Origin: Cephalotus follicularis
Taxonomy: Eukaryota; Streptophyta; Magnoliopsida; Oxalidales; Cephalotaceae
Assembly (NCBI GenBank): GCA_001972305.1
Contig: BDDD01002893.1
Coordinates: 62,001-126,000 of the forward strand
DNA length: 64,000 nt
Reading direction: 5' to 3'
Shown here: piece after piece, positions 4,837 through 57,654 of the stretch
Numbering within the stretch: position 1 is the first letter of the stretch
Layout: each line of letters begins with the position of its first letter
Notes under the pieces: model-generated
Seen by the model: the letters and a program-made list of their open reading frames with translations, nothing else
Database searches by the model: none
Told to the model about the DNA's origin: nothing
Program-made: the position numbers and the translations under genes

Positions 4837-4949
4837 CAGTCGGCTGCCCTCAAGAGTAGCCGACTGCCTTGGTCGTGTAGTCGACTGCTTGGGTTTGGCA
4901 GTCGATTGAAAGGGTTTAGTAGTCTACTGTAATTGTTTACAGTCGACTG
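4837..4949. repeat. CAGTCGACTG motif array (mid-LTR)
   Basis: Six copies or variants of the palindromic 10-mer occur, among them CAGTCGGCTG, TAGCCGACTG, TAGTCGACTG, CAGTCGATTG and an exact CAGTCGACTG at 4940-4949. They are spaced roughly 15-25 bp apart. Confidence 0.85.
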
Positions 4950-5955
4950 TCTCTGCCCAGAAAATGCAGGCAGTGGCATGTCATGCAATGCAATTTCGAT
5001 TTTCAATCAATTTCAATACATGTAGCATGTAGAAGATAGACATACACAATATGCATACTATATCTTCTATAACATATCATTACCCCTACCTCAAATCGCT
5101 ATCCCAAGATCAATTGAGTTTGATCTTTCTCTTTGAGTTCCAAGTCACTTTCACCAACAAATCTTTCAATTTCCAGAAAGTTCAATCTATGCATGTTTGT
5201 TTAAGAACATATGCATCAATACAAGCAGGTTTCAGTAATTCTAACAGTGGTTTAATCATTAATCCATTAAGTCTTAACTTTCCTTTTTCCAATTTCCTTT
5301 TGAATTCTATGTCAGGTATCATCCAACCTCGGATTCATTGATCTTAAGTGTGTTGACAGAAGGTATATAAATACTTAAGAAACCAGTAAGCATATATCCT
5401 AACATTAACAACAACTATAATCCATTCTAGAGGTTATAGTCACCAATTCCAGTTGATCCAATCACTACTTCCCATTTCAATTCAAAGGTTGTTAATTCTA
5501 ATCCATTGACAAAAGATATACTACATTCTCCTAGCTATTTTATCATCATAACCACAGAGAATTCGGATTGAGAACTTACCAAGAGACTAAAGCTTCAAGG
5601 TTCCTCCTTGGAGCTCTCTAATTCCTCCAATGCATGCTCCAATAATCCCTCTCTTCACTCAGTGTTTTCTAACACTCATCTCACAATTCAACAACTGATA
5701 TAATGTCAAAATCACTTTTGAATTCGTCAGATTCCCTTTCCCTAGTCACATGCACTCACTTTTATCCCTTTTCTTTCCATCACATGCATCCCTCTCTTTA
5801 CCTTTCTCATTAATTATCAATTGTAGGTTGTAGGTCTGCAGAGAATATGCAAGCATTCCCCTTTTGCATGTTCTGGCAGGTGGTGGACGCATGTGCCTCC
5901 TACCCACCTGTCATTCTTGTCTTTGCACATGCCAGGAATCTGTCCTGGGCAATTC

Positions 5956-6035
5956 CAGTCGACTGGCTATAGTGGGCAGTCGACTGCCTTCATCACGTAG
6001 CAAACAGTCGACTATTGCCCTGTGAAAGTCGACTG
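5956..6035. repeat. CAGTCGACTG motif array (LTR start side)
   Basis: Exact CAGTCGACTG at 5956-5965, a second exact copy near 5985, then CAGTCGACTA and AAGTCGACTG. Measured in the LTR's own direction, the array lies about 175-255 bp from the LTR start. Confidence 0.85.
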
Positions 6036-6210
6036 TTTGGACTGGTTTAGGGTTTCCTGATTTTTTTGATGCTTCACCAATTTCACATCCATTCATCCCA
6101 AACATTTACCAATCATAGAAATTAATATAACTGGACAATTAACTAAATTAAAATGTATATTTTATTTCAAATTGGATCAATATACATTAATTGAAGTTGC
6201 GGTTATTACA

Positions 6211-6223
6211 TTCCCCCCTCCTT
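6211..6223 (-). other. Polypurine tract
   Basis: Minus strand AAGGAGGGGGGAA immediately precedes the TGTAATAACC start of the 3' LTR. This is the expected plus-strand primer position. The same tract precedes the LTRs at 16518, 35656 and 39397. Confidence 0.9.
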
Positions 6224-6256
6224 AAAGAAAATCCGTCCTCGAATTTATCCCTTACA

Positions 6257-9200
6257 TTACATTCCGAACAAGTGGGGAAATGTTTCCCTCATTTCGTCCT
6301 CACGCTCCCACGTAGCTTCCTCAGCTCCGTGAAAACGCCACAACACTTTGACCATAGGGATGATCTTGTTCCTCAGAACCTTTTCCGTGCGATCCACAAT
6401 CTTCGTAGGCCTTTCTTCATAAGTCAATCTAGGACTGATGAATCCAGGGTCGTAGCTCAAAATGTGAGATGGGTCAGGTACGTATTTCCGTAGCATGGAA
6501 ACATGAAATACGTTATGTACGTCCGACAAACTAGGTGGTAGTGCAATCTGGTATGCTACCTCCCCCACTCTCTCTAATATCTCGTAAGGTCCAATGTACC
6601 TTGGAGCTAACTTTCCCTTGAGGCCAAAACGGTGTATCCCTTTCGAAGGCGAGATCTTCAGGAAAACATGATCTCCCTTCTCAAATTTCAGCTTCCTTCT
6701 CTTGCTATCGGCATAACTCTTCTGTCGACTCTGTGCAGCTAGCAATCTCTTCTTGATCATCTCTACTTTATCAGTGGTCTCTTGTACCAAGTCAGGTCCA
6801 AGTACTTGTCTCTCACCTACCTCATCCCAGCAAATAGGTGATCTAAATTTTCTCCCATACAAGGCTTCATACGGAGCCATTCCAATGCTGGTGTGAAAAC
6901 TGATATTGTAAGAGAATTCAATCAATGCTAGATGATCCTCCCAACTCCCAGAAAAATCAATCGTACAAGCCCGTAACATATCCTCCAGAGTCTGGATCGT
7001 ATGCTCGGACTGTCCGTCAGTCTGTGGGTGAAATGCAGTGCTAAAGTTCAAGGTTGTTCCCATAGCTCTCTGGAACTTCTTCCAGAAACTTGAAGTAAAC
7101 CTAGCATCTCGGTCTCAGACAATACTGACCGGCACCCCATGCAATCTCACTATCTCCTGGATATACAATCGAGCAAGCTTCTTGATAGAATATGTCATGT
7201 TCATCGGAAGAAAGTGTGCAGACTTAGTGAGTCTGTCCACAACAACCTACACCGCTTCATGTTGATTACATGACCTTGGCAATCCCGACACAAAGTCCAT
7301 GGTCACATGATCCCATTTCCATTCAACCAATGGTAGCGATTGTAGCAGTCCCGCAGGTTTCTGATGTTCAGCCTTCACTCTCTGACAGGTCAAACATCTT
7401 GCTACATATTCAGCAATTTCCCGTTTCATACCGCTTCACCAGTAATTCTTCTTCAGGTCGTGCCACATCTTGGAACTCCCTGGGTGAACACTATATCTCG
7501 ATTTATGAGCTTGTTGTAATAGCTCATTCTTGATACTCTCATCATCCGGAACACATATCCTTCCTCGGAACCTCAACATGCCATCAGTATGACTGGAGAA
7601 CTCAGAATCTGTGTCTAGGTTCTCACGAATATTCCACAATTCAGAATCACTATACTGAGCAGTCAGAATACGCTCAAGAAGTTCCAGTTGTACTCTCATA
7701 CTTGCCACAATCACTCCTCGGGAAACCATGAATGGATTCCATCTCTGAAATTCCTCCAACAGATTCCACTGTGAAACCATAGCTCCAACAATCATTGCCT
7801 TGCGACTCAACGCATCAGCCACTACATTCGCCTTTCCCGGGTGGTATTGAATATTGCAGTTATAATCATTGAAGAACTGCACCCATCGCCTCTGTCTCAT
7901 GTTGAGCTCCTTCTGGGAAAACAAATACTTTAAACTCTTGTGGTCAGTAAAGATTTCAAATTGTGCTCCATAGAGATAGTGCCTCCATTTCTGTAAAGCA
8001 AACACTATGGTTGCCAACTCAAGATCGTGTACGGGATAATTTTTCTCGTACGGTTTTAACTTCCTTGATGCGTATGCAATCACCCTACCACGTTGCATAA
8101 GAACGCATCCCAATCCTTTCCCAGAAGCATCTGTGTAGACAGCAAAACCCTCATTACCTTCCGGTAATGCTAACACTGGAGCCGAAATCAATCGACTCTT
8201 TAACTCTTGGAAACTCGCTTCACAAGAATCATCCCACACAAAACTGGACTTCGTCTGAGTCAACTGTGTCAGTGGTGTAGCAAGTTTTGAAAATCCCTTG
8301 ATGAACCTTCGGTAGTAGCCAGCCAATCCCAAGAAACTACGAACCTCCGTAACGTTCTTCGGTTGGGGCCAATCAACAATGCTTTCAATCTTCGAAGGAT
8401 CCACTGAAAATCCTTCACTCAACGCTATGTGACCTAAGAAAGTCACATGATCCAGCCAAAATTCATACTTGCTGAATTTGGCGTATAACTGTTCCTTCCG
8501 TAGTGTCTGCAGTATAATTTGTAAATGCTGCATGTGTTTCTCAATGCTCTTTGAGTAGATCAGGATGTCATCTAAGAATATAACGAAAAACTGGTCCAGA
8601 TAAGGTTGGAACACCCTGTTTATCAGACACATAAAGGCTGCATGAGCATTAGTCAAACCAAACGGCAGTATCAGAAATTCGTAATGCCCATATCTGGTTC
8701 GAAATGCAGTTTTCTCCACATCACCTTCTCGGATCCTCAACTGATGGTAACCTGTTCTCAGGTCAAGTTTGGAGTATACAGTTGAGCCTTGCAATTGGTC
8801 GAACAACTCCTTAATATGTGGCAGAGGATATTTTTTTATTCACCGTCACCTGATTCAGTAGCATGTAATCAATGCATAGCCGCATCGATCCATCCTTCTT
8901 TTTCGCAAACAGAACTGGTGCGCCCCACGGTGATACGCTCGGTCTGATAAACCCTTTGTCAAGGTAATCTTGCAGTTGAACTTTCCACTCCTTCAGCTCA
9001 GCAGGAGCCATTCTGTATGGTGCTCTAGATATAGGAGCAGTTCTAGGCAACAGCTCAATACTGAACTCTATATCTCTCTCTGGTGGTAACGAAGCGAGTT
9101 CATATGGAAACACGTCAGGAAAATCACATACAACAGGCACTTGTTCAATATTAGGCGTACCTTTCGTATGATCAATTACATATTCCAAGTAGCCTTCACA

Positions 9201-9797
9201 TCCTTGCTTGAGATATCTCTGTGCTCGTGTATATGAAATGATCGGAGCAGCAACATTCTTTTCTCCGATAAACTTGCACTCAGTACCATCTTGTAAATAA
9301 AAGGTCATCATCTTGTTGTAGCAATCAACACAAGCATGATGAGCATACAGCCAATCCATCCCCAAGATTACAACAAAATCTCGGATAGGTAATACTATCA
9401 ATTCAGCGGATAGTTCAATCCCAGCCATCACGATTTCACAGTCTTTCATAACAGCATCAGATAAAAGACAAGTACCCGCAGGAGTACTCACCTCCAAAAC
9501 ATATGATAGTCTAGTAGTAATGCCATGCAAATTGTGAGCAAATTCAGATGCAATGAATGAATGTGTAGCACCTGGATCAATCAGTACATGAGCTAATATG
9601 CCAGATATATAGATAGTACCTCCCACAACAGTAGTAGATTCTGGCACATCATCTTTAGATAAGGTATAGACCCTACCTTTCATAATCCCCTTTCCGGTGT
9701 CTCTTCGCGGTTGAGCCACCGCAACACTACCACTAGCACCAGTACTTCCTTGTTGTCTGCGTGCTTGATCTCTCATCATTGGGCAACCACCCATCAC
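6257..9797 (-). pseudogene. Gypsy pol fossil: protease, RT, RNase H, integrase, chromodomain
   Basis: Parts in coding order: zinc knuckle of gag, CX2CX4HX4C with core [15 protein letters not shown], just upstream at about 9785-9835; protease around 9500-9600 with DPGATHSF (usual form DSGATHSF); RT from about 9000 to 8500 with [23 protein letters not shown] and the catalytic FLDDILIYS; RNase H around 7800-8150 with [14 protein letters not shown] and ending [15 protein letters not shown]; integrase zinc region with CLTCQRVK near 7380; integrase core end with FHPQTDGQSE near 7020; and a C-terminal chromodomain with VLWRFHGAEEATWE near 6300. RT order and the chromodomain place it in Ty3/gypsy chromoviruses. 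It is broken in about four places and is treated as a fossil. Confidence 0.92.
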
Positions 9798-10115
9798 ATG
9801 TTCTTGCGAACCGCATCTCAGACATTTTCCCGTCTTCTTCCAACATTCACTCTCATTGTGGTTCTGACGTCCACATAAAGTACATCGTTCAGAGTTTTGT
9901 TGGCCACTTCGGTTAGGAGTTCTTGATCGAAAATTGTTGCCTCAAAAACCTCATTGATTCTTATTTCCAGACTTTGCAGAACCAGCGGGATTGTTGTTAC
10001 CCTACCTTTGTGACTGTGCTGGTCTCGATTGAGTACGAGACCGCTCTATCCTTCTGTCATTTGCATCAGACTCCAGAATCCTAGCTCTCTCCGCAATATC
10101 TACAAAAGATGTTAG

Positions 10116-10877
10116 CTACAACAGTAATAACTTAGATCGGATATCTGGACGAAGGCCTTTCAGGAACCTTCGGATCTTTCTGGGTTCACCCTCTACGAGA
10201 TAGGGCGTGTGCCTAGCTAACTCCACGAAATGGGTCTGGTACTGAGCTACCGTCATATCACCTTGACGTAGCTCCATTAATTCTTTCTCTCTCCTGTCTC
10301 GCTCCATCTGTGGAACATAAGCCGCATAGAACTCTGATTGAAATCGATCCCAAGTTCTGTCTAGATTTCGAGATTCCCACTTTGCCTCAACTATTTCCCA
10401 CCAATGAGTAGCTTCATCCCATAGGCGGTACACATCAAAGGTAATCTTTTGTTCATCGGTACATCTCAAGGCTTCAAATATCCTCTCTATGTCCTTCATC
10501 CATCGCTCAGCTACATTGGCATCCAACTCCCCTAGGAATGTAGGAGGATTCTGCCTCATGAACCGCTCCAGGTCTCTGCCAAAATCACCAACATGATTGA
10601 CTTCTGGAACACATTGTCGGGCTTGAGTAGCCTCATACATCTGTCTCATCTATTCCATGTGTGTAGCATTGGCTTGGATCTGCTGTTGGAAAAGATAAGC
10701 CATGCGTTCGTAGTTACTCCTCTCATCGTGTACTGGAGGAACATTTACTTTCGGGGCATTTTCGTGAATAGGCAGGGCATTGTTCACCTCGTCAGCTCTA
10801 CGCCTTCCACGTCTACCTCTCCTTTCATTCATTCTGTTTCCTATACGGAATGACAAAATCATTAGGAAACATTTCAT
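10116..10877 (-). pseudogene. Gypsy gag fossil
   Basis: The region begins with a basic N-terminal segment (MNERRGRRGRRRADEVN) near 10830 and continues into the retrotransposon gag domain, with PPTFLGELDANVAERWM, WDRFQSEFYAAYVP and MELRQGDMTVAQYQTHFVEL, then FLKGLRPDIRSKLL. This is the capsid-like domain of Ty3/gypsy gag. It lies just downstream of the primer site, as expected for the first reading frame. It is broken, with about two interruptions. Confidence 0.88.
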
Positions 10878-10933: not shown

Positions 10934-11360
10934 TGCTGTCACACCCCGTATTTCCCAATCACGTTAGGCAAGCATATGTGGTGATATCAGAAATAAGCAT
11001 AAATAATATTCCAGCAATTCAATTAACAATTCATAATTAAATTTGCGGAAGCATTCGATAAGCCAGAATATATTACAAGCCGTCCGCACGTATCCCATAC
11101 TACGTGCGGGTAAAAGCAATAATAACAATTATCCTTACATAAGGAAAATACAACACAAAACGGGATGTGATCCACTCGATACAATACTGTAATAACCGTA
11201 ACTTCAATTAATGTATATTGACCTAATTTTGAAATAAAATATACATTTTAATTGAGTTATTTGTCCAATTATATTGATTTCTATGATTGGTAAATGTTTG
11301 GGGTGAATTGGTGTACAATTGGAGATTTATCAAAGTTAAGAAACCCTAATCTAACCCAAA

Positions 11361-11440
11361 CAGCTGACTGTCATAGGGCAACAGTCGACTGTTTGCCACG
11401 TGATAAAGGCAGTCGACTGCCCTCTATGTCCAAACGACTG
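11361..11440. repeat. CAGTCGACTG motif array (LTR start side)
   Basis: Contains CAGCTGACTG at 11361, CAGTCGACTG near 11391, an exact copy at 11410-11419 and AAACGACTG near 11432. It lies about 175-250 bp into the LTR, the same placement as in the other LTRs of this family. Confidence 0.85.
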
Positions 11441-12615
11441 GTTTGCTCCAGGAAAGATTCCTGGCATGTACAAGGACATGAAAGACAGGTGGGAAATGGC
11501 ACTTGTGTCTCACCAACTGCCAGAACATGCAAAAGGGGAATGTTTGCATGTTCTCTGCAGACCAACAACCTGCAAATTGATTAATTAAGAGAGAAAAGTG
11601 ATTAGAGGACAAGGCATGTGATGGAAAGAAAGAAAGAAAAATGTGAGTGCATGTGAGTAGGTAGGAATCTGACGAAATTATAAGCATTTGAGACTTAGAT
11701 CAGCTGATTGAATGGTGTTTGAGTGTTAGAAACACTAAGTGAAGAGAGGAATCATTGAAAGCTTGCATTGGTAGGATTGGAGAAAGCTCAAAGAAGGAAC
11801 TTGAGGCCTTAGACACTTGGTAAGTCTTTGATCCGAATTCTCTGTTGTTATGATGATAATATGACTAGGAGAATATAGAATATCTTCTGTTAATGGATTA
11901 GAATCAACAATTCTTAAAATTGAAATGGAAAATAGTGAATTGGATCAAGTGGAATTGGTGATTATAACCTCTAAAATGGATTTTAATTGTTGATTAGTGT
12001 TATAACTTAATGATTCCCTTAAGTATACCTACTGTTGAAACTTGCAAATCAGTAGGTGGATTGAATAAATTAGTTGGATATGGAAAGTGTTTTAAATGGA
12101 ACTAGAGGCTTAAGAGTTCTAGTAATTCTTGATGCAACTAGATGATGATTATAGTCATTGATTAGTACATATATACATACTGATTTCATGTATATACCTT
12201 CTATCAAAACAAGTTAAGAACAATGAATCGAAAATTAATGATACTTGAGATAGGGTTCAAAGAGAAGTGGTGAATGGTAAGAATAATGTTAAGACTCATG
12301 AGCTAATGATTAAACCACTGTTAAAGTTATTGAAACCTACTGGTACTAATGCATGAGTCTATAAACATGCTTACATAGATTGATATTGCTGAATTGAAAG
12401 AATTGTTGGTGAAAGTGACTTGGAACTCAAAGAGAAAGATCAAACTCAATTGATCTTGGGATAGCGATTTGAGGTAGGGGTAATGATATGTTATGGAAGA
12501 TATGAGTATGCATATAGAGTATGTTTATTTTCTGCATGATTACATGTATTGAAATTGATTGGAAAATAAACTTGAAGTGCATGACTTGCCATTTTCTGCA
12601 TTTTCTAGGCAGAGG

Positions 12616-12707
12616 CAGTCGACTGCCAAGCCCAGCAGTCGACTAACCAACCTATCCAGTCGACTGCCAAGGCAAAACAGTCGACTATTCTTGAGAGCAG
12701 CCGACTG
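12616..12707. repeat. CAGTCGACTG motif array (mid-LTR)
   Basis: Five units, including exact copies at 12616 and 12657, CAGTCGACTA variants and CAGCCGACTG at 12698-12707. The phrase CGACTGCCAAGGCA after the 12657 copy recurs in the copia element C2 at 54498. Confidence 0.87.
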
Positions 12708-15144
12708 TTCTGAGCAAAATTGCATAATATTGACTGAATTGCTACTGTTATTGAATTGTATATGCTACCGCCATATAGTATATACTGTTTGATGTTATTT
12801 AACATCACTACTACTTGCATTGCAACTATCGAACGAATTATGTGCTATATGCACGATTTATGGTTTTAAACACCATTTTCAAAGGAAAAACTATTATTGC
12901 AAGAACTATTGAATTGCGAGACTGTTACTGAATATGCTACTGTCATATTATTATAAACTGTTTTGGTGTCATTCAACACCACTACCACTTGTATTTCAAT
13001 GATTGAAACCAACTACGGGCTATGCACCCAATTTATGATATCAACTATCATTTTCAAAATGAATGATTATTTCCATGTGAACTACTGATTTTCCTCCTAT
13101 ATGAGAGGCACCTACTATTTTGTTTCCCAAATTGGGAACCACTATTGAATTGAGATCGTTTTCCTCCAAAGAGATGTACGATAAATGATCGTTATATGTT
13201 TTTACCGAAAACAACTTTTATATTGCATATTGCTGATATATGTAATATTATTATTGAAATGCTTGAATTGATTGTCTATACATACCGTAGCCGAGTGATG
13301 GAGGACATCACTGACTATGGATGTAATTCTGAGTGCCAGGAGTTGGCCAGAGTATCACCTAAACGTGTTTGCATTGTTACACTACCCGCCAACGCCGGTA
13401 GTAATTGTTACCTGATTTATCATCTTCGGAGTGTAGGGTGATAGATAGGTGGTGCACTGTTGGTGCTAGGAGTTAGCGACATGTGATACCTAATTGATGG
13501 ATGAATTGATTGTACCCTTGTGCGGTATTATTGCATATGTACTGTTTCTGGCCACTTGGCATGACTGTCGTTATATTGGTTCATTTAAATGTTATTTTGA
13601 TATAAATTGTCATACATGTTGCATCCATATACTCCTTATCATACATTATCATTCTACTTAGCCAAATGAGGACAACGGCTAACCCCTACAATTTCAGATT
13701 AAGCAAGGACATTGGAGATTGCTGCTGAAGCCTGGAGAGCTTCTTATTTTCGATTTAAGGTTGATTAATTATGACGTTCTACTGTAATTGTTTTAGAACG
13801 GTTCATACCTTGTTATGTTGTTTTTTCCTTATGTAAGGATGATTGTTGTTTTACCCGCATGTAGTATGGGATGCGTGCGGATGGGTTATTTTATATTCCG
13901 GCTTATCGAATGCTTCCGCAATTTAATTATGGTTATTATTTGAAATGCTGGAATATTATTATATGCTTATTTTCTGATATCACCACATATGCTGGTTCAT
14001 TGTACGTGAACCAAAACAACAGGGTGTGACAAATACAATAGATCATAATTGAAATAACAACCTTAAACAAAAGTAACAAGCTATCCAAGCTTCAGTGGAG
14101 ATCTCCCGAGTCTTCGCTTAATCTGTAATTGTAGGGGTTAGTCGTTGTTCTCACTTGGCTCAGTAGGAAGATAATGCATGATAAGGAATATATGAATGCA
14201 ACATGTATGACAGTTTATATCAAAATAACATTTAAATGAGCCAATATATAAGTAATCATGCCAATTGGCCATAAACAATCCATATGCAAGAATACTGCAC
14301 AAGGGTACAATCAATTCATCCATCAATTGGGTGTCACATGTCGCTAACTCCTAGCACCAACTGTGCACCACCTATCTATCACCTACACTCCGAAGATGAT
14401 AAATAAGGTAACAATTACTACCGGCATTAGCGGGTAGTTTAACAATCAAGCTCTGCATTGCAGGCAGTTTTGGTGTGTACTCTAGCCAACTCCTGGCACA
14501 TAGGACCACCTCCGTTAGCCAGTGACATCTGCCATCACTCGACAAATCGGCAATAACATAGACAATCAATTCAATCAATTCAGTTCAATAATAATATCAC
14601 ATATATGTATAATATGCAATATAAAAGTTATTTTCTTTAAAAACATATAGCAAAACATTTATCGTACATCTCTTCGGAGGAAAACGATCTCATTTCAATA
14701 GTGGTTTCCAATTTGGGAAACAAAACAGTAGGTACCTCTCATATAGGAGGAAAATCAGTAGTTCATTTGACAATAATCATTCATTTGAAAATTGATAGTT
14801 AATATCATAAATTGGGTACATAGCCCATAGTTGGTTTCAATCATTGAAATGCAAGTGGTGGTGGTGTTAGGAGACACCAAAAGAGTTTATACTAATATGA
14901 CAGTAGCATATTCAGTAAGAATATCACAAATCAGTAGTTCTTACAATAATGGTTTTCATTTGAAAACGGTATCTAAACCATGAATTGTGCATAAGGTACA
15001 TAGTTCGTTTGATGGTTGCAATATAAGTAGTGGCAATGTTAAATAACATCAAACAGTATATACTATATGGTGGTAGCATATACAATTCAATAACAGTATC
15101 AAACAGTAGCAATTCAATCAATATTATGATATTTCTACCCAGAA

Positions 15145-15257
15145 CAGTCGGCTGCCCTCAAGATTAGCCGACTGCCTTGGTTGTGTAGTCGACTGCTTGG
15201 GTTTGGCAGTCGACTGAAAGGGTTGAGTAGTCGGCTGTAATTGTTGACAGTCGACTG
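15145..15257. repeat. CAGTCGACTG motif array (mid-LTR)
   Basis: Counterpart of the 4837-4949 array in the partner LTR. The motif positions are the same, but several units differ by single bases. Confidence 0.85.
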
Positions 15258-16263: not shown

Positions 16264-16343
16264 CAGTCGACTGGCTATAGTGGGCAGTCGACTGCCTTCA
16301 TCACGTAGCAAACAGTCGATTGCTGCCCTGTGACAGTCGGCTG
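16264..16343. repeat. CAGTCGACTG motif array (LTR start side)
   Basis: Counterpart of the 5956-6035 array. It contains two exact copies, a CAGTCGATTG variant and a CAGTCGGCTG variant. Confidence 0.85.
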
Positions 16344-21099: not shown

Positions 21100-23479
21100 A
21101 CTGGGTATATTGGGGATGTGGAGTAATAGTTGAATAAAAATAAAAATAAATAATAAATAAAATTTCCATAGAACATGGTGAGCATTTGAGGGCTATTTAG
21201 TGGACCCGAAGGAAGTGAGAATTGTGTTAACGAAATAAAGAAGTGTTACTCAGATCTCTTCTCCTAACAAGCTTTGGTAAGCCTCTTGGCTTTCTTTGTT
21301 AAAGTTTAGTTAAAATGTTTATATTATAATCATAATTTCGGGTTGAGGAATGACGAAATGAGTGAAGTATATTAATTTTTTTGTGCTCCTTTCATCTTTT
21401 AAGTTTTGGTATTTAAGTGGCAATGAAGAAGGGTGAATAAATTCTGTTTTTTTGGGATGTTAATAAGTTGGGAATTATGTATATGTTAGGTTGTTGAAGA
21501 GACAAATTATATATTTATGATAGATTGGATGGAAATTTTGAAGTTGATTTCATGGGTCATAATTTCCTTTATGTCCTGAAAATTTCGGCTTCAATAGGAA
21601 TTAGAAAGGAGTAGTGATTTTCTAAGGTTTTAAAATTTTTGGGGTTGTTAGTAAGTAGAAGATACATGAATAATTTTGCTGGATTTAAAAGTTCAAGAGA
21701 TGTAAGTGTAGAAGTTAGTGTTGCCTTCAAAGATGGTTAGTATGTAATTCAAGAAACTTGGAGTATGAATTAATCTCTCCCTCGTCTCCTTAAAAATTCT
21801 GATTTTATGAATGATAAAGAAAGGATGAATTCATTATAATGTATGGTTTTATTTGAGTGGGAATTGAAGTTTTATAGCATGAATTGGTTCCTCTTATTCT
21901 TCTTCAAATTTCATATTCTTTAAGAGGAATTGAAGGGCTGTTTTTTTTAAGTTTTAAAGATGGATTATGTCACACCCCGTATTTCGGTTCCATAACATTA
22001 GACCAGCATATATGGTGATATCAGTATTAAACATACATCCCGGCATTTCTTTTAACAATATATAACAATATGCGGAATTAGTCAATAAGCCAGAATGTAT
22101 AAAAATACAAGTCTTCGCACGCATCCCATACTGCGTGCGGTTACAAGTAAAATTATCCTTAACATAAGGAAACATCATAAAACGGAGTATGATTCGTTCG
22201 TTCATTACAGTACATAAACAACAGTAAAATAACAACCTTAAACGATAAACAGAAGCTTTCAGAAGCTTCGGCAGCAAGTTCCAAACGTCCTCGCTCAATC
22301 TATAATGGTAGGGGTTAGCCGTTGTCCTCACTTGGCTAAGCAGGAAGATAGTGTATGCAGAAGAATATATGGATGCAATGTGTATGACAGTTTATATAAA
22401 ATAACATTTAATGACCAATATAGGAGCAATCATGCCAAGTGGCCATAAACAGTACATATGCAAAGATACCGCACAAGGGTACAATCAATTCATTCAGTGG
22501 TTTGGGTGTCGCATATCGCTAACTCCTAGTACCAATTGTGCACCACCTACCTATCACCCTATGCACCGAGGATGATAAATCAGGTCAGTTACTACCAGCG
22601 TTGGCGGGTAGTTTAACAGTAATTCTGCAATTGCAGACAGTAGGGTGATACTCTGGCCAACTCCTGGTACACAGGATCACATCCATAATCAGTGATATCC
22701 TCCATCACTAACTATGGCAGTAACATAGACAATCAATTCAATCAGTACAATCAGTAATAATATTACATATATAATCAATATGCAATATCAAGATGGTTTC
22801 TTTTAGAAACTTATAACAGTTCAGTAATCGTGCATCTCATGTGAGGAAACGATATCAGTAACAGTAGGGGTTTCCAGGTAAGGAAACAAACAGTCGGTAC
22901 CTCACATGTGGAGGAAAACAGTAGTTTATTTTAACAATAAACCTCTCTTTGAAAATGATAGTAAGTTATCATAATTTTGGTTTCAAGTCCCATAAACGGT
23001 TTCAATCTTTAAAATATCAGTAGTAGTGGTGTTAATAGCACCAAACAGTATGTATATACTAATATAACTAGTATATACGGTATTATTAATCAAAACAGTA
23101 GTTTTGTAAACAATAGTCCCATTTGGAATGATGTTTAAACCATAATTTGTACATGTAGTACTTACTTTGATCAATCATTGAAATATCAGTAACAGTGGTG
23201 TTTAAATAGCGCCAAACAGTAGATATATACTAACATAAGTAGTATATACAGTGCCATTAAACTAAACAGTAGTTTTTATAATTCATAGCAGTCATTCGAA
23301 ATGGTGTTCATGCCATAAATTGGGCATATAACACATGATTCGTTTGATCAGTGAATTATCAGTGGTAAGGATGATAACTAACATCATACAGTATGTGCAT
23401 TATGTTGGTAACATATATAAATCATCAACAATGCAAATCAGTAGAAAATCATTGATTATTATGCAGATCCAGCCCAGAA

Positions 23480-23549
23480 CAGTCGACTGCCTCAAGAACC
23501 AGTCGGCTGTTGGGTTGAGTAGTCGACTACTTTGGGTGGCAGTCGACTG
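23480..23549. repeat. CAGTCGACTG motif array (mid-LTR)
   Basis: Four units: an exact copy at 23480-23489, CAGTCGGCTG, TAGTCGACTA and an exact copy at 23540-23549. Confidence 0.85.
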
Positions 23550-24575: not shown

Positions 24576-24655
24576 CAGTCGACTGGATTCATGTGGCAGT
24601 CGACTGTCCTCAACACGCAGCAGGCAGTCGACTGATCCCCTGTGTCAGTCGGTTG
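24576..24655. repeat. CAGTCGACTG motif array (LTR start side)
   Basis: Three exact copies followed by CAGTCGGTTG at 24646-24655, spaced about 20-25 bp apart. Confidence 0.85.
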
Positions 24656-28467: not shown

Positions 28468-28491
28468 ATTTTTAACTGTCTGAATCAAATC

Positions 28492-41900: not shown

Positions 41901-42664
41901 TCGTTTTAAGGTTGTTACTTATGATGTTGTACTGTAATTTGTAATTGAACAGTTCATACCTCGTTATGTTGTATTTTTCCTTATGAAAGGATAATTATAT
42001 TACTTGTTCCCGCACGTAGTATGGGATGTGTGCGGATGGCTTGTATTATATTTTGGCTTATTAACTGCTTCCGCAAATTACTTATGAATTATTGAATGAG
42101 ATGCTGGAATATTATGTTAATACTGATATCACCACATATGCTTATCCAACATAAAACGTAATTGGAAAACGGGGTGTGACAGGATGAGATGTTGACGTGT
42201 AAAGTTTCTGGTTGAAAGCACTGACGCTAAGAGTTAAGCGGCGACGCTTAAGTGACTCGGTTGAACATTAACGCCTATATGGTGCATGTTGACACGAATA
42301 GAGCCCGTTGCATTATTGAGCATATGTTCACGTTGCATACAATTGTTGATTGAGCTATCACCTGATTTCTAAAATGTTCTTCATTTTAGAAGTGTATAAA
42401 TGGTTTATTAAATCATTGTTATGTGGAAATGTATGTTTTCCAAAAGGATTGTGAAAGTGGTTTTAAGGGATTGAGAAACTGTTATACGAAAATGAGTATT
42501 TTCGTGTATTCGAACATGGTTCGAATGACTGGTTTTACATTTTAAAATGTATTGGTTTCGAGTATTTTATTATACATTGGAACTACTTGAAAACGATTGT
42601 AAAAGGATTGTTATATATATTGAGCAAATATATATGTTTTTCAAGTGTTTATATTTATAAATTA
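38924..42664. repeat. Tandem duplication, second copy (3741 bp)
   Basis: Near-identical to 35183-38923. It contains the chromodomain coding fragment (38997-39350), polypurine tract (39384-39396) and LTR (39397-42181) with arrays at 39569-39695 and 40755-40848, then the family D LTR start from 42182. Unlike the first copy it continues into the remainder of LTR D. Confidence 0.93.
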
Positions 42665-45214: not shown

Positions 45215-47966
45215 TGTAATACCCTGCTTACCTGTACGTATTTTCTAACGGGTTTTAATTGTTTCATTTATGTATTTGTCCGTTTTATGTTGGGTTTACG
45301 TTTTTGGGCTGACTGATACCAGCCTAAATTTTTGGGTTTGTTAGTGTGGGCTTTTGGGCTTTGGTAAATTAGATATATTAGTATTATTATTAATTCCATA
45401 AATCAATTTTAAAAGCTTTTTTTTAAAATACCACATTTTAATTTAATCTTTCCTTTTCTTTATCTTTTTTTCCTTTTTCTTATTTTCCTTTTCTATTTTA
45501 TTTCCTTCTCTCTCAAATTCTCTCTCCCTCTCACGACATTTCTCCCTCTCTCAACACTCTCTCCCGAATCCTCTTCATCTTCATAATTGTTACACGGAAA
45601 TAATCTTCTTATTCCATATTAACATGATTTGGTCTCATGGTTTCCTTATTCTTTTCCCCATAATTTCCTCTTCTTTTCCGATTGGGTTTATGTTGCTATA
45701 TATGGGTGTCAAGACTTCATCTCTGTCATATCTCCTTGCTGCCGAATCTGTCATTGGAAGGGTCACTGTCTTCTTAGTGTTCTTGCTCCATTAAAAAGGT
45801 TAGTTTCATCAAAGGATTAATGCAGAATTTATTTCATGGTTTATAGCATAGCATTGTCAAAGTTTTGAATGTGTATTCTTCTTTCTTTTGATTCTGTCGA
45901 ACAGCCTGTTTTTCCTTCAATCTGTGTCGTCATTTCAGGTTAGTTGTTACTCCTTTGATTACGGTTATATGTTGATATGATCCATGGATTGTTTTTCCAT
46001 GTTTGAATTATTTTGAAGGAGTAGTTTTGGTTTTCACTCTTCTTTGGTTTCTGTCAAATGGACATGTGTTTAGAGCCTACTGTAGACGTCTAGGATGTGT
46101 AAATAATCTGTTGTTGATGCATATGATCATTATAATTGGACAAAATTGGATTGTGAATTGGCAACCCATGGTTTAAAGTCTCTAACACCTGGGAATAATT
46201 TTCTGTCAATAGAATTCTGTCAAATTCAGTGATGTAATGTGATTTTACATGTGATATAAAGTTGTTCTTAATGTTGGTAAACGTCTGGTATTGAAGGAGT
46301 TGAGTTTGGGTAGCAAGATTGCATCAAATCTGCAATATTTCTGGTTTCTATCGAGCAAGGCAGTCGGCTGCCCTGTGAATGCAGTCGTTTGGTTGTCCTA
46401 TTCAGTCGACTGGATGCCCTGTTCCAGTCGACTGTATGCAAATCCAGGTTGTGTAGTCGACTGGTTCTGTATTTCAGTCGACTGTCTGCAAGTCCAGGTT
46501 GGGTAGTCGACTGATCCTGTTATGCAGTCGACTGCCACCCATTGTTAGTCGACTGGATCCTTCAAACAGTCGACTGGTTTGTCCTGTAAACTTCTGTTTT
46601 CGTCCGTTTATTCTTCTGATGATCCGGATTTAATTGTAAACATCTTTATGATTCTGTTTTGTGTTCAAAATGGATTTTAGACCCTTATATGAATGTTTTC
46701 GTATTGTATAGATTTGGGTACTACGTGGGACCTTTAAGTTATTCGTAAGCTTATTTGTGATCGCACAAGGTATGGATTCTTCGTTCCTTGACATATTCTT
46801 ATCGTTTCAGTACCGTTTGAGATTTAAATACAGATTCTGATTTTGATATTACTAGGTTTATGAATATGCTTACTTTGGTTTATGAATTCCGTATGTTTGG
46901 GTTTTTGAAAATAAAGTCCTTTGATATTTTGTGAAGTAAATATCCTGACTTTCCGAAATCAGTTATAATGTATTTACGAATGATATGTGATCATCCAATC
47001 GTTATGAAATTAGATGAGTTGATTTTACTAAATATGAAAGTATGTGAAACTTTGTCGTTTGAATACGAATTTTAGTAATGGTTTGCGAAACGTCTTATTT
47101 GAAAATGATTTGATGAAATCATATTTTGAAAATGGTGAAATACTGAGCTATTATATCCACCTATGGGGGTACCATAGGCATGTTGTGGGCCTGGCACGGG
47201 GGCATGACACTTTCCATAACGGTGTGATTCGTTTACGGCGTCTCTCAGGGATATCCGTAGATCAGATTTGGGATAGAGGCGTATAGATCGATCTTAGTTA
47301 TATGTTATTGGGATATGTTTGGGATATGGGGATTGTATGTGTAGTGCCGTATACTGCAACTCCATTGGCAATGTGGGTGTCGCGAAACTCCTTACTACTA
47401 TATGATATGTTTTGGGTTTTGGTGCTCAGGTTATTGATCCTATGTTTTGGAAAAAGGTACACTTTATGGTTTTCGAAGTTATGAACTTTGTTTATCCGTT
47501 TTGCCGTGGGCATTTATAAATCATGTTGAAATTATATTATTGCTTAAGATTTCAATTTTTATACGCTTTTAGAAATCTTCCTGCTTTAAAAATATTGTTA
47601 CTGTTTTATATTCTATATCCGTACTGAGGTTTGCTCAGCCGTGTTTTTGTTTCCATGTGGCAGGTTATCAGGAGCAAAGGGGCAATGTGTGATGAGAGTG
47701 ACTCCCATCCTTATCTGAGGGTTTTCTTGTAGCTGATCCTTTATGTTATATGGTCGTAGTGGAACCAGTTAAATTGAACAACATGTTAATTTCATATTAT
47801 AACATTTGGTTTATGTTTAAGATTTTGATATGATCAGTTTTTATGTATTTTGGTTATGCTTTAAATCGTCACGTTTTTAATAAAGATGAACCTTTTTAAC
47901 ATGATGTGATCCGTTTAGTTTTGGTATTATGCACTGTGGCGACTCCTGCGTCTCGGGGGTGTTACA
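45215..47966 (+). mobile_element. Solo gypsy LTR, family G (2752 bp), nested in copia E
   Basis: Starts TGTAATACCC and ends GGGTGTTACA, short inverted ends. The target duplication GTATG is at 45210-45214 and 47967-47971. It differs in sequence from the Tekay-type LTRs. A pyrimidine-rich stretch lies near 45430-45560. It contains a ten-unit CAGTCGACTG array (46361-46576). No coding sequence is supported. Confidence 0.92.
46361..46576. repeat. CAGTCGACTG motif array in LTR G
   Basis: About ten units, five exact. Spacers include GGATGCCCTGTTC before an exact copy and GTATGCAAATCCAGGTTG. The GATGCCCTG spacer also occurs in the copia C1 array. Confidence 0.92.
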
Positions 47967-51950: not shown

Positions 51951-51951
51951 C

Positions 51952-51962: not shown

Positions 51963-54473
51963 TGTTAGAGTAGAGTGTCCCTGCATGCCACGAGGTGGCT
52001 CTGCATAAATATATATGTATGTATGAGATGCAGTCCTTAACTGGAGATATCTCTTTAAGTCGCGGGGTGGCTGCATATGTGTATATTACACTCTTTATTT
52101 ATACAATGTGAATTCCTTTTTGTGTTTTATAGTGCATATTCAATCAACAATGGCAACCCGTTATATGTATATCCCAAACCATCTCAATGGATCAGTTGAT
52201 CACCATGTCAATTGAGTACACATATAGTGCCCTGTCGTTCGAGGGGTTGGATCTCATGCCTGAGAGGTTATGAGAATGAGATCCTTACTCCCTTCTGACG
52301 GAACGTTCCAAGTCATAGGTTCACTTTCTTTGGGCAATTGTTGAACCGTAAAGACTTGCCGTATTATGCTTGCTCCCAGGTTTAGTGGAGGATGGACTAT
52401 CTCATTACCATTTGGATTTATCGTAATGCATAATGTGGGGTTCGTGCTAAGGAGCATGAGACTAAACAGACCCACCATAGGAAACCTATTTGGAAATTCA
52501 TACCTATATCAACAGGATTCATATAGTCTCGGTAGTGTATAGTCTACGGTGACTAGTAGACCATTCGTGGAGCTACGTTGTATCATTAGACCTGAGCGGC
52601 TGGCATGCGTTGTGTTATGACTGCTTGGCTTTGATTTTCGCCTTCCCAATCACTAGCCATGTGCTGGCAAAAGGGTTGTCTTTGGGCCTTGTGGGAGCTT
52701 TGTTGAGATGTATGGACGAGTTCTCAATAAGGGATCGTCACACCCATATGAAGGGTGATTGGCTCTATATTATTTATGTCCGTTGAGACTCATAAAACCC
52801 TGATAAGGTATAGACAGACTAGAAATGGTGTTTCCGGGGAGGTTTGCCGAAAGTCTCAATGCGTACATAAATTTATAGTTATTGCGACTTTACCTAGGGG
52901 TGACATTATTCCGAACCCTAGGTTGCGGTCGGAGCCAAGTATGACATAGGATACATGACACATATGTCGATGACTGGATAAAGTACTGGTTTAACCAGAT
53001 GTCGAGTTATAGACGTGGTTGATTCTACAGATCCGGGGGTTGGTGGGATTCACATCGGGGCCGTTTTAATAGTCAGGGACTATTGGGATAGACGTACCAG
53101 ATTTCATGGGATGTTCTAAGAAATTTATATTCGTATCGGATTCAAATCGGGCTTTTGGGTCCCACCTGATTATTGGAAAAGTGATGCATGCTACACACAT
53201 GATAGCTTGGTGGGAAATCTTGTTTTAACTAGTATATATTAATTTGGCATTAGTGGTTTAGTTATTTATTTAAATTTACCACCGTATTATCAAATTGATA
53301 TATTAAGAGAAACCACAGTGGGAGTATGTTTTAACATACCATGTGCAGGGTGTACATAGTTAAAACATTGAGAGAAACAATTTTAATATAAGAGAAAGAG
53401 ACTTTGACTTAGTCTTAAGTCTTCACTCTTTGTTTTTGGCTTCACTCATACGCCAAACAGGGGAGGAAAAATGCACGGCTTTGTGCGTGGCACCTCGTGC
53501 GCGCTTCTGGACGGACAAGACAACGCGCGGTGGCGTTGGTGGCCGGGAAGAGGACCTGGTCGTCCACGGTGAGTCCTCCTCTCTTTCTCCTTCTCTTTTC
53601 TCCCCGTTTCTCTCGATTTTACCATAGCGTTTTTCAATGCCACCCACTGCCGGTCTTCTCTTCTGCCGCCGGTGGTCTTGGTAGGTGGCGCAATGCTTGG
53701 CTCTGCCTATTTTGGCCTTAGACTAGGTTTGACCGGCATTGTTTGGCTGGGTTTGTGCGCACAGAGTCAACCCTGGCTACTCAGTGCGTTTTGCGCCGTG
53801 ATTCGGCGTTTTGCGCCGATTCACGACGAGTCTTGCATTGGGTTGTGTTGGCCGTGCTTTGTAGGTGTCGGTTGTGGTGGTGCAGTGTTGCGGCAATCCT
53901 GTTTTCGTCAGGCGGGTTGACTTGCCACCGTCTGCACGCCACGTTCCAGGCCGAGTCTAGGCCATCAGTGGCTTTATCGGGTGTTTGTGGTCCACATATG
54001 TCACGGCTGGTCAATGATGCGTTGACCGTGACTCACTGAGTCCGAACTCAGTGATTCACCGCCACTGTTCACAGCCTTCCAGAGTGCTTCCAGGCGCGTC
54101 TCCTCCAGAAACATGCTGAGCATGCTTTTTGGAGTCCGTTGGTGTCTTGGTTGAAGTTTTCGTGGACTGGCCGGAAACCGACAGTGGAGTCGGTAACCAG
54201 AAGTTGCTTCGGCAAGCACGTAGCAGCAAAGTGATGGAGACACCAACGTTGGTATGCTTCCTAATCTTATTTTTTTAATGTTTACCGAATTGGTTTCTGT
54301 TGGCTTTTTGCCACCCCTTTAATTGTGTTATAGATTATGTTTCGATGATTAACAAACAAGTAACAATCAAGAAACACTTATATGCATGATTTGATATCAT
54401 ACAAATTCATATACTCACTTGGTTTCATTGTTGAAAGTGTTGCAAAGGTTCTAAATTGCAGAAACAGGCAATC

Positions 54474-54858
54474 CAGCCGAATGAAACAGAGCTTCAGTCG
54501 ACTGCCAAGGCATACAGTCGACTGCCAACATTTGACCAGCCGACTGGACCTTCAAACAAACCCAGAACCTGAATTTGCACACAAGCCAGCCGACTGCCAC
54601 AGGGCTCCAGTCGACTGCCAGGCCAAGACAGTCGACTACCACAGGACTACAGCCGACTGCCATGAAATGCACAATTCAACCAGTAGCTTTGGAAATAGAA
54701 TTTCTAGCCCAACCAGCCGACTGGAAAAGAGCATCAGTCGACTACCCAGGCATACAATCGATTGCCTAGTCCATCCAGCCGACTGCCTCCTCCCAACGGC
54801 TATAATTAAAAATGCACAACATTTTACCAGCCGACTGCAAGGAAAATCCAGCCGACTG
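54474..54858. repeat. CAGTCGACTG / CAGCCGACTG array in C2 U3
   Basis: About 17 units: CAGCCGACTG and CAGTCGACTG with CAGTCGACTA and CAATCGATTG variants. The unit at 54494 is followed by CCAAGGCATACAGTCGAC, matching a phrase in the gypsy solo LTR at 12657 apart from one substitution and one indel. The array ends 24 bp before the promoter block at 54883. Confidence 0.92.
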
Positions 54859-54882
54859 GATTTGGTCTGAATGCACAAAAAA

Positions 54883-54910
54883 AGATCCGTTGGAGGATCT
54901 CTATAAAAGG
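54883..54910 (+). promoter_or_regulatory. Core promoter block of C2 LTR (TATA box)
   Basis: AGATCCGTTGGAGG (54883-54896), four bases, then CTATAAAAGG (54901-54910). The same block is conserved in copia C1 (28439-28467, minus strand). It lies immediately downstream of the motif array. Confidence 0.75.
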
Positions 54911-55426
54911 AAGAATGTGGTATTTTTACATAAGAGACATATCAAAAGATACCAAGCAAATACACATTACTTCCAAGCAACACTAGAGCTATTTTCAATC
55001 TTTCAAATCAATATCCAAAGCTTGTAACTAAGCTAGAAACTTTCATATCCAACCTATTGAGAGGTTATATTGTAAACACAAAACCAAACACTTTTATCAT
55101 TCTTTGTAATAGAGGGGAGTGAACCCTTGTAAGGTGTTTATTGATTTACACCCAGAACCCAAAATCAAGTGTAAAGGTGGTTTGTTTGATTTGCACCCGT
55201 AAGCCGAAAATCAAAGGTTGCTAGTGGTGGCTAGTGGAATCTCAAGGTGTTCTTGAGAAAGTGGACGTAGGCACGGTTTTGCCGAACCACTATAAATTTG
55301 TTTGCACTCTCTATCCCTTAACTCCTTATTTATTTGTTCTTGTGTGCTTGTTTATGTTCATAGCTTAATTTGTTAATTCCGTAAACAATTTGCATTAGTT
55401 AAAGGTTGCCATACATTACTTTCAGT

Positions 55427-55440
55427 TGGTATCAGAGCAG
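55427..55440 (+). other. Primer binding site of C2
   Basis: TGGTATCAGAGCAG lies two bases after the LTR end; initiator tRNA-Met type. Confidence 0.9.
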
Positions 55441-55479
55441 TTATCTCATTATTCTTAATTGTTAGAGATACAAAGATCC

Positions 55480-57142
55480 ATGGCAAACCAAATGAACATA
55501 GGATTAGAAGGCTCCTCTATCACTAGACCTCCGTTCTTTGACGGAATTAATTATAGCTTTTTGAAGACTAGAATGACTATATTTTTACAATCCCTTGACT
55601 ATCAAATGTGGCATATAATTATCAATGGTCCTAAAATGCCCACAAAAACTATAGATGGAGTAGTTTCTCCTAAACCCGAGAATGAATATAATGACAATGA
55701 CTTTAGAATGCTCCAATTGAATTCTAAGGCCAAACATGTTTTATTTTGTGCCGTTGGCCCTAATGAATTCAATCGGATATCCTCGTGTGATTCGGCTAAA
55801 GAGATGTGGGATTTGTTAGAAGTCACATATGAAGGCACGAATCAAGTTAAGGAATCTAAAATAAGCATGCTTGTACATGAATACGAATTATTTATAATGC
55901 ATGATAATGAGAGTATTAGTGATATGTTTACTCGTTTTACTACCATTATCAACTCTCTCAAAAATCTTGGCAAATCCTATCCTAACCATGAACTTGTAAG
56001 GAAAATCTTAAGGTGGTTGCCAAAGAGTTGGACGCCGAAGGTGACGGCTATTGAGGAGGCCAAAGATCTCTCCACTCTCCCACTCGAACAATTAATTGGC
56101 TCCTTGATGACGCATGAAACAACAATGAAGAATCATGAGAATGTGGAAGTCAAGAAGAAAAAGGCAATCGCTTTCAAAGCTTCAAAGGAAGATAGTGAAA
56201 GTGATGAAGATGGAGATGTTGCTCTTATTACCTCCCAATTCAAAAGGTTCCTCAAGAATCAAAAAGGTAAAAAGAATTTAAAAAAGAATCACCTTCAAGA
56301 TGAAGAACCAAGCAAACGGGAAGAACCAACATGCTATGAATGCAAGAAGCCCGGCCACTTCAAGAACGAATGTCCAAACCTCAAAAAGAAAGAGCAATTC
56401 AAGAAAAATAATGAATACTTCAAGAAGAAGAAAGCAATGGTGGCCACATGGTCGGATAGCGACTCCTCAAGCTCCGAAGAGGAAAGCGATGAAGAAGTTG
56501 CACACATTGCTTACATGGAAATTGAGGATGAAGAAGATGAGGTAAATTTTACCTTTGATGAATTGCAAAGTGCTTATGAAAATCTATATGTTGAATATGA
56601 GAATATGTGTTTGAAAAATAAGACTTAAAAGAAAAATGCTATCTCTATGTCAAAAGAAATTGATGTTTTAAAGAGTGAGAATAGCAAGTTTTTAAATGAA
56701 ATTGAATCTCTAAAAGATAAAAATAGTTTTTACATGAATGAGATTGAGATTCTAAATGTTTCCTCAAAACTATCAATTGATTCTTTGGAAGAAAATGAAA
56801 AAAATAAAAATTGAAATTGATGCTTTGAAGAAAACGTTTTCCACATTTTCCAATAGTAGTGACAAGTTGGATAATTTGCTAGGATTACAAAGATGTGTGT
56901 TTGACAAAGCTGGTCTCGGCTACGATGAAATGAAAAATGTCAAACATTTTCAAAATTTCTTTATCAAGAAAAGTGAGCATAAAATGTCTTGTAATTATTG
57001 TGGTAGACTTGGACATATGTCTACTTCTTGCATATATAGAAATAATCGTTATTATGGTAAAACTAAGAAAATTTGGGTTCCGAAAGGAACTATCGTGACT
57101 AACACTCAAGGACCCAAATTTATTTGGGTACCAAAAGTTTAA
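55480..57142 (+). pseudogene. C2 gag (UBN2 type, two zinc knuckles)
   Basis: The likely start is MANQMNIGLEGSS at 55480, near the primer site. The UBN2/copia gag domain includes PPFFDGINYSFLKTRM, EMWDLLEVTYEGTNQVKE and LPLEQLIGSLMTHETTM. A zinc knuckle, CYECKKPGHFKNEC, lies near 56335-56375. An acidic serine-rich stretch and coiled-coil region follow. A second knuckle, CNYCGRLGHMSTSC, lies near 56993-57030, and then IWVPKGT. It resembles the gag of C1 in architecture but is clearly divergent in sequence. It is nearly whole, with about one interruption. Confidence 0.88.
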
Positions 57143-57443
57143 ATCTCTTACTTTGTAAGTGTGCTCAAAGGAAATGATATTATGGAACATCAAGCTATAT
57201 ATATGTGAGCACATGTGTAGTAAGTTCTTTTTGTCTTTGTACATGTCATGAAAATTGGTATATGTGTATGTGCTATGATTTCTTGAATGCAATTACATGA
57301 TTGATTGTATATTTGTTTTTAAAACATGTCTTGCATCAAACACTGAGTTTTCAACTCAATCACATCAAAATGCTCATATATCTAAGTCACTATTAATCAA
57401 TAATAGCTGACCACGATTTCTTCGGATCAAAGAAAAGACTCGA

Positions 57444-57654
57444 ATCTGCCAATTTCTATTTCTGCAGATTCCAGTCGACTGGTGTCCTGGTCCAGTCGAC
57501 TGTTTTTACAAAAGAAGTCGACCCCTTTCATAAGACATCGACGTCTTTCAAGATCAATCTGCCATTTTCTTTTTCTGCAGATTCCAGTCGACTGGTGTCC
57601 TGGTCCAGTCGACTGTCTGTGTTCCAGTCGACTGCCTAATGACACCAGTCGACT
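57444..57654. repeat. Internal CAGTCGACTG array upstream of the C2 second ORF
   Basis: Exact 10-mers at 57472, near 57493, 57585, 57606 and 57624, with a CAGTCGACTA at 57645-57654. A 59-bp stretch (57444-57502) is repeated at 57557-57615 with a 113-bp period, each copy holding two exact motifs joined by GTGTCCTGGTC. The array lies about 120-330 bp before the start codon of the ORF and is the only array in the window outside an LTR. Confidence 0.92.

Follow-up and report, generated by a model that had tools for sequence, protein, structure and literature searches.

Arrays of one palindromic 10-mer, akin to Sirevirus RM boxes, in copia and Ty3/gypsy long terminal repeats of Cephalotus follicularis

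Palindromic boxes in long terminal repeats (LTRs) have so far been reported as a speciality of the Sireviruses. In these elements, 13 of which are listed with such motifs, palindromic repeated-motif (RM) boxes are clustered a short distance ahead of a TATA box, within the upper LTR half, and members with an envelope-like open reading frame (ORF) carry RM boxes again 5' of that ORF (Bousios 2010; PMC2829016). A CGG-CCG core is present in 12 of the 13 listed boxes, Tnd-1 being the exception, and the sections of that survey cited here call the box Sirevirus-specific relative to classic Ty1/copia elements, with no Ty3/gypsy LTR in the comparison (PMC2829016). A related case is known from maize, where Sirevirus palindromes clustered in the cis-region of the LTR are small-RNA hotspots (Bousios 2016, through PMC5311732 and PMC10760457). 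The same palindrome also ranks as the most frequent motif of structured Helitron regions, a precedent for sharing across element classes, and the portion of the study used here describes no obvious structural peak in maize Ty3 elements (PMC10760457). Here, we describe arrays of a single palindromic 10-mer, CAGTCGACTG, in 64,000 bp of the Cephalotus follicularis genome (positions 62,001 to 126,000 of contig BDDD01002893.1, assembly GCA_001972305.1; hereafter the window), where they are found in two copia elements, C1 and C2, in the LTRs of Ty3/gypsy elements and in a solo LTR, G, of a third family.

The 10-mer occurs in 49 exact copies in the window where 0.06 are expected, a number reached by none of 100 dinucleotide shuffles. 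No other 10-mer, palindromic or not, is as frequent in the window, and the runner-up among palindromic 10-mers is present five times. Allowing one mismatch raises the count to 109 sites (0.77 expected), and with up to two mismatches 124 of 135 matches fall within 19 arrays, defined as groups of at least three motifs. A first-pass annotation, made from the letters of the sequence, had put the exact copies at about 50, far above chance, in about 17 arrays; the excess and the arrays are real, the latter numbering 19, and the layout it described (two arrays in each complete gypsy LTR, one in each C1 LTR, one in the C2 5' LTR and one in the C2 interior) matches ours. Neighbouring motifs are spaced by 19-22 bp, i.e., two helical turns, in 83 of 105 pairs, and by 27-29 bp in another 11. 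LTR intervals, delimited together with duplications by self-BLAST of the window (domains were assigned by a Pfam scan of ORFs), make up 42% of the window and contain 44 of the 49 exact copies; the other five all lie at 57472-57634, inside C2 and upstream of its ORF. The box is not present in every LTR. One LTR-like stretch, ending at 44053, is a relative of gypsy LTR I (62% over 404 columns, E = 4e-17), and no array is present in the 1.9 kb examined.

The copia arrays are of an already known kind, that of the Sirevirus RM boxes, and C1 and C2, which are mutually related by LTR alignment, bear Sirevirus hallmarks. On the minus strand, the C1 3' LTR (27896-29161) carries 17 motifs in groups of about four (28492-28997), and the truncated 5' LTR of the same element, C1r, carries 10 motifs (33017-33348). 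On the plus strand, the C2 5' LTR (54298-55427) has 14 motifs (54474-54858), and a further array of six (57472-57655) stands in the C2 interior just 5' of a 367-aa ORF (57772-58875, plus strand), which we take as the envelope-like ORF of C2. This ORF matches PF20167 (Transposase_32; Pfam E = 4e-22 on the stop-to-stop ORF 57679-58872), and its ATG lies 116 bp beyond the end of the interior array. Within the copia LTRs, groups of about four motifs at 21 bp are set 49-73 bp apart, and a CTATAA box starts 44 (C1) or 43 (C2) positions after the last motif; C2 holds two other CTATAA sequences, the one used here being that aligned with the box of C1. Similar to RM boxes, therefore, the 10-mer is a many-copy palindrome (at least eight copies) of the upper LTR half, placed before a TATA-like box and again 5' of an envelope-like ORF (PMC2829016). 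Judged by eye, its nearest listed counterpart is the Vitis RM box CGGTCGACCG, with which it has the GTCGAC core in common, whereas it differs from RM boxes in that it is not among the 13 listed, is without CGG-CCG and occurs also in Ty3/gypsy LTRs and a third LTR family (PMC2829016).

The polypurine tracts and the LTR junctions of C1 and C2 agree with this assignment. All six copies of the polypurine tract AGGGGGAG on both strands of the window precede 3' LTRs, three in C1 (29164, 29448 and 29479, minus strand) and three in C2 (59127-59382, plus strand), and in both elements the last tract is followed by AT/TG at the start of the 3' LTR, a Sirevirus hallmark, with a terminal AGGGGGAGATTG in each. 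The junction of LTR and primer binding site agrees with the Sirevirus 16-mer CAATTGGTATCAGAGC at 15 of 16 positions in C2 and 14 of 16 in C1. In both elements, an inverted repeat can be made out by eye around the terminal polypurine tract. A polyC-rich integrase signal is described near the LTR 3' end in 17 of 21 elements (PMC2829016); a run of seven C is present in both C1 LTRs (27909 and 32434), and the C2 5' LTR has no run of six or more. The ORFs scanned with Pfam in C1 and C2 contain no reverse transcriptase domain. C2 (55459-58875) encodes gag followed by the PF20167 ORF, a family described as related to ORF1 of Athila elements (PMC11728184), with no pol domain in the ORFs scanned there, and may be a non-autonomous Sirevirus. 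Both C1 and C2 have also been altered at one LTR. At its two ends, the C2 3' LTR (59381-60757) retains 96 bp with 100% and 115 bp with 98% identity to the 5' LTR, and it is without an array because its middle has been replaced: 919 bp of the 5' LTR, array included, are substituted by 1,166 bp that end in GGGGTGTGACA, a gypsy LTR end. The C1 5' LTR is cut within a motif copy at 33364-33366, where CAGTCG is followed by gypsy LTR sequence.

What appears to be new is the setting of this known kind of box, as the same 10-mer at the same spacing recurs in Ty3/gypsy LTRs and in solo LTR G, none of which lies within a Sirevirus. The group of A, E, F, H, I, J and K is marked by the Ty3/gypsy domains found in the window, gag, RVP_2, RVT_1 and SH3_Tf2-1 (Pfam), and by LTRs of 2.7-2.9 kb; its Tekay label is that of the first-pass annotation. 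In each complete gypsy LTR (A, its right-hand partner Ar, E, F, I and the duplicate J), the beta array lies about 170-300 bp and the alpha array about 1.3-1.5 kb from the LTR start, and the partial LTRs H and K retain the alpha and the beta array, respectively. Element A lies on the minus strand and has gypsy gag, protease, reverse transcriptase and integrase C-terminal domains at 6257-10649; its LTR at 3474-6210 carries six alpha motifs (4837-4949) and, near its 5' start, four beta motifs with spacings of 21-28-21 (5956-6035), and Ar carries the corresponding alpha (15145-15257) and beta (16264-16343) arrays, also on the minus strand. Nested within this right LTR is the solo LTR E (11188-14031, plus strand, AATAC flanks), with beta at 11361-11440 and alpha at 12616-12707. 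LTR F (21968-24828, minus strand) has alpha at 23480-23549 and beta at 24576-24655, partial LTR K (26946-27810, plus strand) has beta at 27119-27198, and partial LTR H (33366-35196, plus strand) has alpha at 33488-33558. On the plus strand, LTR I contains six beta (35826-35953) and five alpha (37014-37107) motifs, repeated in LTR J at 39567-39694 and 40755-40848. J is a tandem duplicate of I: a 3,742-bp unit with a complete gypsy LTR is present at 35182-42664 in copies 99.97% identical, either through a very recent duplication or as an assembly artefact, and the arrays of I and J are therefore a single observation.

LTR G (45215-47966, plus strand) is solo, spans 2,752 bp and has GTATG at both flanks and an array of 10 motifs (46361-46576) located 1.1-1.4 kb from its start. 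The first-pass annotation had listed it as a gypsy LTR with an array; the array is present, and since G lacks a coding part the gypsy label comes from its termini only. When the motifs are masked, comparison of G, gypsy and copia LTRs gives no clear homology between the families, the best E values being 0.003 (G against I) and 0.004 (E against C1), with reversed-sequence controls, run for G only, reaching 0.024.

The motif is conserved between lineages to an extent that its surroundings are not. In an alignment of six gypsy LTRs, which yields 14 between-element pairs, motif columns differ by 5.6-11.3% in 13 pairs, as against 28.6-44.0% for spacers and 16.2-31.2% for the remaining LTR columns; in the F-H pair, the corresponding values are 2.5% (1/40), 0/30 and 9.5% (154/1619). 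The Ar-I pair illustrates the pattern, with 5/90 differences in motifs, 29/83 in spacers and 649/2430 in the rest (Fisher p = 8e-7 and 5e-7). In 12 of the 14 pairs (all but F-I and F-H), divergence is quicker in the spacers than in the remaining LTR columns. The motif columns were picked by presence in at least two sequences, a choice that favours conservation, and the test was repeated one-way, without requiring a match in the second sequence. In this form it gives 2.9-10% for gypsy motifs versus 16.7-31.1% elsewhere (26 directed pairs outside A-Ar and F-H), and for copia 8/109 versus 408/958 from C1 to C2 and 13/111 versus 403/956 in the reverse direction. CG dinucleotides inside the motif were all kept from C1 to C2 (11/11), compared with 6/16 of the other CGs.

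After insertion, the motif as a whole is unprotected. This was assessed in the two available LTR pairs of single elements, A-Ar and C1-C1r, whose divergence has accumulated only since insertion. In A-Ar the motif changed faster than the remainder (7/100 versus 80/2543, p = 0.044), in C1-C1r the two do not differ (2/105 versus 25/839, p = 0.76), and neither do they when the pairs are pooled (9/205 versus 105/3382, p = 0.30). Low mutability therefore fails to explain the conservation of the whole motif, which is accounted for by selection while the lineages were active. The contrast between change after insertion and conservation between lineages offers a simple route to functional LTR sites elsewhere.

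With moderate confidence, we read the arrays as cis-regulatory enhancer boxes of the Sirevirus RM type, which three LTR families would use for one factor. A single sequence-specific, probably dimeric, DNA-binding factor would recognise the dyad-symmetric sites, which recur every two helical turns (about 21 bp), binding at each palindrome with neighbouring sites on the same helix face, and would help to activate the LTR promoter as well as, in C2, that of the envelope-like ORF. Binding, activation and a host factor common to the three families are what we infer from four features: the placement of the boxes right before TATA-like boxes in copia, the maintenance of motif and spacing while spacers drift, the lack of protection of the whole motif after insertion, and the presence of the same 10-mer in three LTR families that have no clear homology beyond the arrays. 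The last of these, combined with motif conservation, is also in keeping with the first-pass proposal of a binding-site-like module, as far as sequence can indicate one. In C1 and C2, the box appears to work like an RM box even though the CGG-CCG signature fails.

Several observations weigh against the enhancer reading or narrow its base. The core signature of RM boxes is missing, CAGTCGACTG having neither CGG nor CCG. Not all arrays are independent, as I and J stem from a duplication and A/Ar and C1/C1r are LTR pairs of single elements. Conservation of motif CGs is seen in one direction only, because from C2 to C1 9/11 motif CGs and 7/10 other CGs are kept (p = 0.64). Moreover, central motif CGs were lost less often than other CGs after insertion (1/20 versus 16/59, p = 0.056), so that the central CG may be less methylated or shielded, and shielding from methylation instead of selection could explain part of the CG conservation. 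Tandem motifs may also steer the aligner and inflate conservation, above all in copia; for gypsy, the constant 21-28-21 register of the beta arrays argues against such an effect. The gypsy alpha and G arrays stand 1.1-1.5 kb inside the LTR, possibly 3' of the transcription start, a position unlike that of a proximal enhancer. As to the factor, the commonest variant contains GCCGAC, the DREB/CBF core, which would make these proteins candidate binders; the GTCGAC of the main motif form is not canonical for DREB/CBF, and literature matches for GTCGAC may be cloning sites.

A further question, compatible with the enhancer reading since it concerns origin, is whether a Sirevirus array, or a piece of one, was copied into the gypsy LTRs and G, e.g., through a template switch between RNAs packaged together or through conversion, with tandem growth then spreading the box. 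We regard this as a tentative possibility. The first-pass annotation had already proposed copying of array pieces between superfamilies on the basis of shared spacers, one example being CGACTGCCAAGGCA, whose copia match exists and starts at 54499 (the motif starting at 54495) rather than at 54498. Spacer similarity was evaluated with tests that permute columns jointly, preserving the kinship of spacers within a family; spacers of 10-12 nt were used, and those differing at no more than two positions within a family were collapsed. These tests replace an initial spacer shuffle, rejected for treating related spacers as independent and thereby overstating significance. Two measures were applied, a profile score (30 tests) and a count of spacer pairs with at least seven matches (20 tests).

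Both measures single out the pairing of gypsy beta with copia. The profile of beta against C1 scores 3.91 versus a null of 2.86 (p = 0.0001, surviving correction, same sense only), and that against C2 3.78 versus 2.92 (p = 0.003, which alone fails correction for 30 tests); these values are as high as that of C1 against C2 themselves (3.92), and the flipped control falls below the null. In the counts, beta and copia have 12 same-sense pairs versus 1.21 expected, a number reached in 0 of 5000 permutations and surviving correction, with none when flipped. Since the motif is palindromic, a mere preference for certain flanking bases would be expected to show in both orientations, and a match confined to the same sense favours shared text. 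The beta-copia match points to text shared through descent or transfer in at least one array. In line with this, the GCCGAC variant holds one orientation in element sense in copia (23 versus 0) and beta (4 versus 0), and largely so in alpha (7 versus 2), related arrays being counted separately here. Furthermore, in table 3 of the RM-box survey the rice elements Osr8, Osr9 and Osr10 each have a box of their own and that of maize HOPIE is unlike that of OPIE-2 (PMC2829016), so that sharing of one 10-mer by elements of the same host cannot be taken for granted, although the same table gives OPIE-2 and PREM-2 one box in common.

Beyond beta and copia, the spacer evidence for transfer is marginal or absent, and the first-pass expectation of similarity exceeding shuffled controls holds in the same-sense beta-copia comparison. 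The alpha-copia counts are marginal (9 pairs versus 2.14, p = 0.014), with profile p values of 0.22 and 0.18. LTR G spacers resemble beta and copia spacers weakly and only when reverse-complemented: flipped copia-G counts fail (2 versus 1.32, p = 0.36), with nominal profile p values of 0.006 (C1) and 0.023 (C2), and the flipped counts of beta-G (3 versus 0.41, p = 0.017) and of alpha-beta (3 versus 0.27, p = 0.010) do not survive correction. Motif-masked Smith-Waterman alignments between arrays give no consistent signal, the maximum z over 106 comparisons being 4.7 and the highest scores falling in inconsistent orientations, which, like the lack of clear LTR similarity beyond the arrays, speaks against transfer. 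A second, oriented site in the spacer, with a theme near CACAGGG, would mimic shared spacer text. Array transfer between families may have occurred, and the remaining arrays can be products of independent growth for the same factor. The broader proposition, that within one plant lineage a regulatory array crossed between Ty1/copia and Ty3/gypsy and into the third LTR family and so created by module exchange a "regulon" of otherwise unrelated elements under one trans-acting factor, is for us likewise a tentative one.

An unlikely alternative to enhancer function is that the arrays act through RNA structure, self-complementary copies pairing in the transcript to form hairpins that feed small-RNA silencing or serve the element RNA. 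Of the seven arrays or parts of arrays folded, out of 19, five fold strongly (z from -3.5 to -8.7), namely gypsy I alpha (-6.5), A alpha (-6.2), part of the G array (-6.1), part of the C2 interior array (-8.7) and the C1 array (-3.5), and the small-RNA hotspots described at maize Sirevirus palindromes (PMC5311732; PMC10760457) offer a parallel in which, unlike here, no gypsy LTR is noted to carry the box. The folds of gypsy I beta (z = -1.7) and of one C2 group (-0.7) are weak, however, and the common copia variant CAGCCGACTG, present in one sense only (23 versus 0), breaks pairing between copies instead of compensating it. Nor do hairpins need a fixed 21-bp spacing.

Still less probable is a system like that of the Arabidopsis VANDAL transposons, in which an element-encoded protein, e.g., the product of the C2 PF20167 ORF, would bind the boxes and remove silencing, other families having gained boxes and protection together. 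VANC proteins target short motifs multiplied in tandem in noncoding parts, as here, and VANC6 motifs occur also in the unrelated AT9TSD1 (PMC5735166; PMC10398659). The likeness ends there, for the cited parts of these studies concern DNA transposons with an element-encoded factor and a non-palindromic motif, YAGTATTAY, and show no tie to a TATA box. The first-pass annotation had invoked this anti-silencing precedent; the closest one lies in the Sirevirus RM boxes (PMC2829016), with an element-encoded anti-silencing factor as an unlikely alternative. The C2 ORF begins with MASRKRK and has a predicted C-terminal coiled coil, features that might suit such a factor. On the other hand, its Pfam scan returned PF20167 only and assigned no DNA-binding domain, comparison with solved structures gave no convincing match (best E = 0.036), and its fold is not predictable, with a mean predicted local distance difference test score (pLDDT) of 42.9 and only 40 residues (about 320-360) reaching pLDDT 70. 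In addition, the Sireviruses OPIE-2, PREM-2, Osr8 and Tnd-1, listed without an envelope-like ORF, retain boxes (PMC2829016, table 3). Finally, a neutral minisatellite grown by slippage is very improbable and already disfavoured: several arrays do register as tandem repeats in a tandem-repeat search and the C1 and C2 array blocks look duplicated by self-BLAST, but the motif is kept although the spacers in its own unit diverge, in 12 of 14 gypsy pairs even more quickly than other LTR sequence, and the same 10-mer recurs across LTR families without clear homology.

The occurrence of one box in unrelated families suggests that rival parasites of the genome use, and perhaps trade, a single switch. 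If the gypsy elements rely on the identical box, a factor of the host or of one element could activate or silence several superfamilies at once. The shared box would make it possible to test cleanly whether unrelated retrotransposons exchange their LTR control modules or reinvent them for a common factor. A literature search found no report of a Sirevirus-type box in Ty3/gypsy LTRs (Bousios 2016 being covered via citing papers only); among the matches listed for the 10-mer none was, by title, on plant LTRs, and AGTCGACT combined with "transcription factor" gave no match. Likewise, the two-box pattern had 0 matches in viral contigs, and BLAST of the C1 LTR against plasmids and of the gypsy reverse transcriptase part against viral contigs returned nothing. 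In prokaryote genomes, nine stretches contain 2-5 exact copies of the palindrome at 20-22 bp, in Sporosarcina, Pengzhenrongella, Porphyromonas, Prevotella, an Actinomycetota metagenome-assembled genome (MAG) and a Myxococcales MAG. Their flanks differ, and they were rejected as relatives and attributed to coincidence, probably reflecting independent use of a similar dyad site.

Lastly, the surroundings of the gypsy and G arrays have features of their own. The alpha array is directly flanked by an imperfect direct repeat, at 12603-12720 in E and at the same place in A, Ar, F, H and I, which in Ar reads TTCTGGGCAGAG before the array and TTCTGGGTAGAA after it. Among 300 shuffles, the similarity of the two flanks was reached by 2 for Ar, 8 for A, 14 for F, 15 for H, 31 for I and 97 for E. 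This repeat could mark the origin of the array. The flanks of the LTR G array also match each other (4/300 shuffles), with a different sequence. Adjoining gypsy LTR A is a 163-bp unit repeated in tandem 10.5 times (1771-3476).

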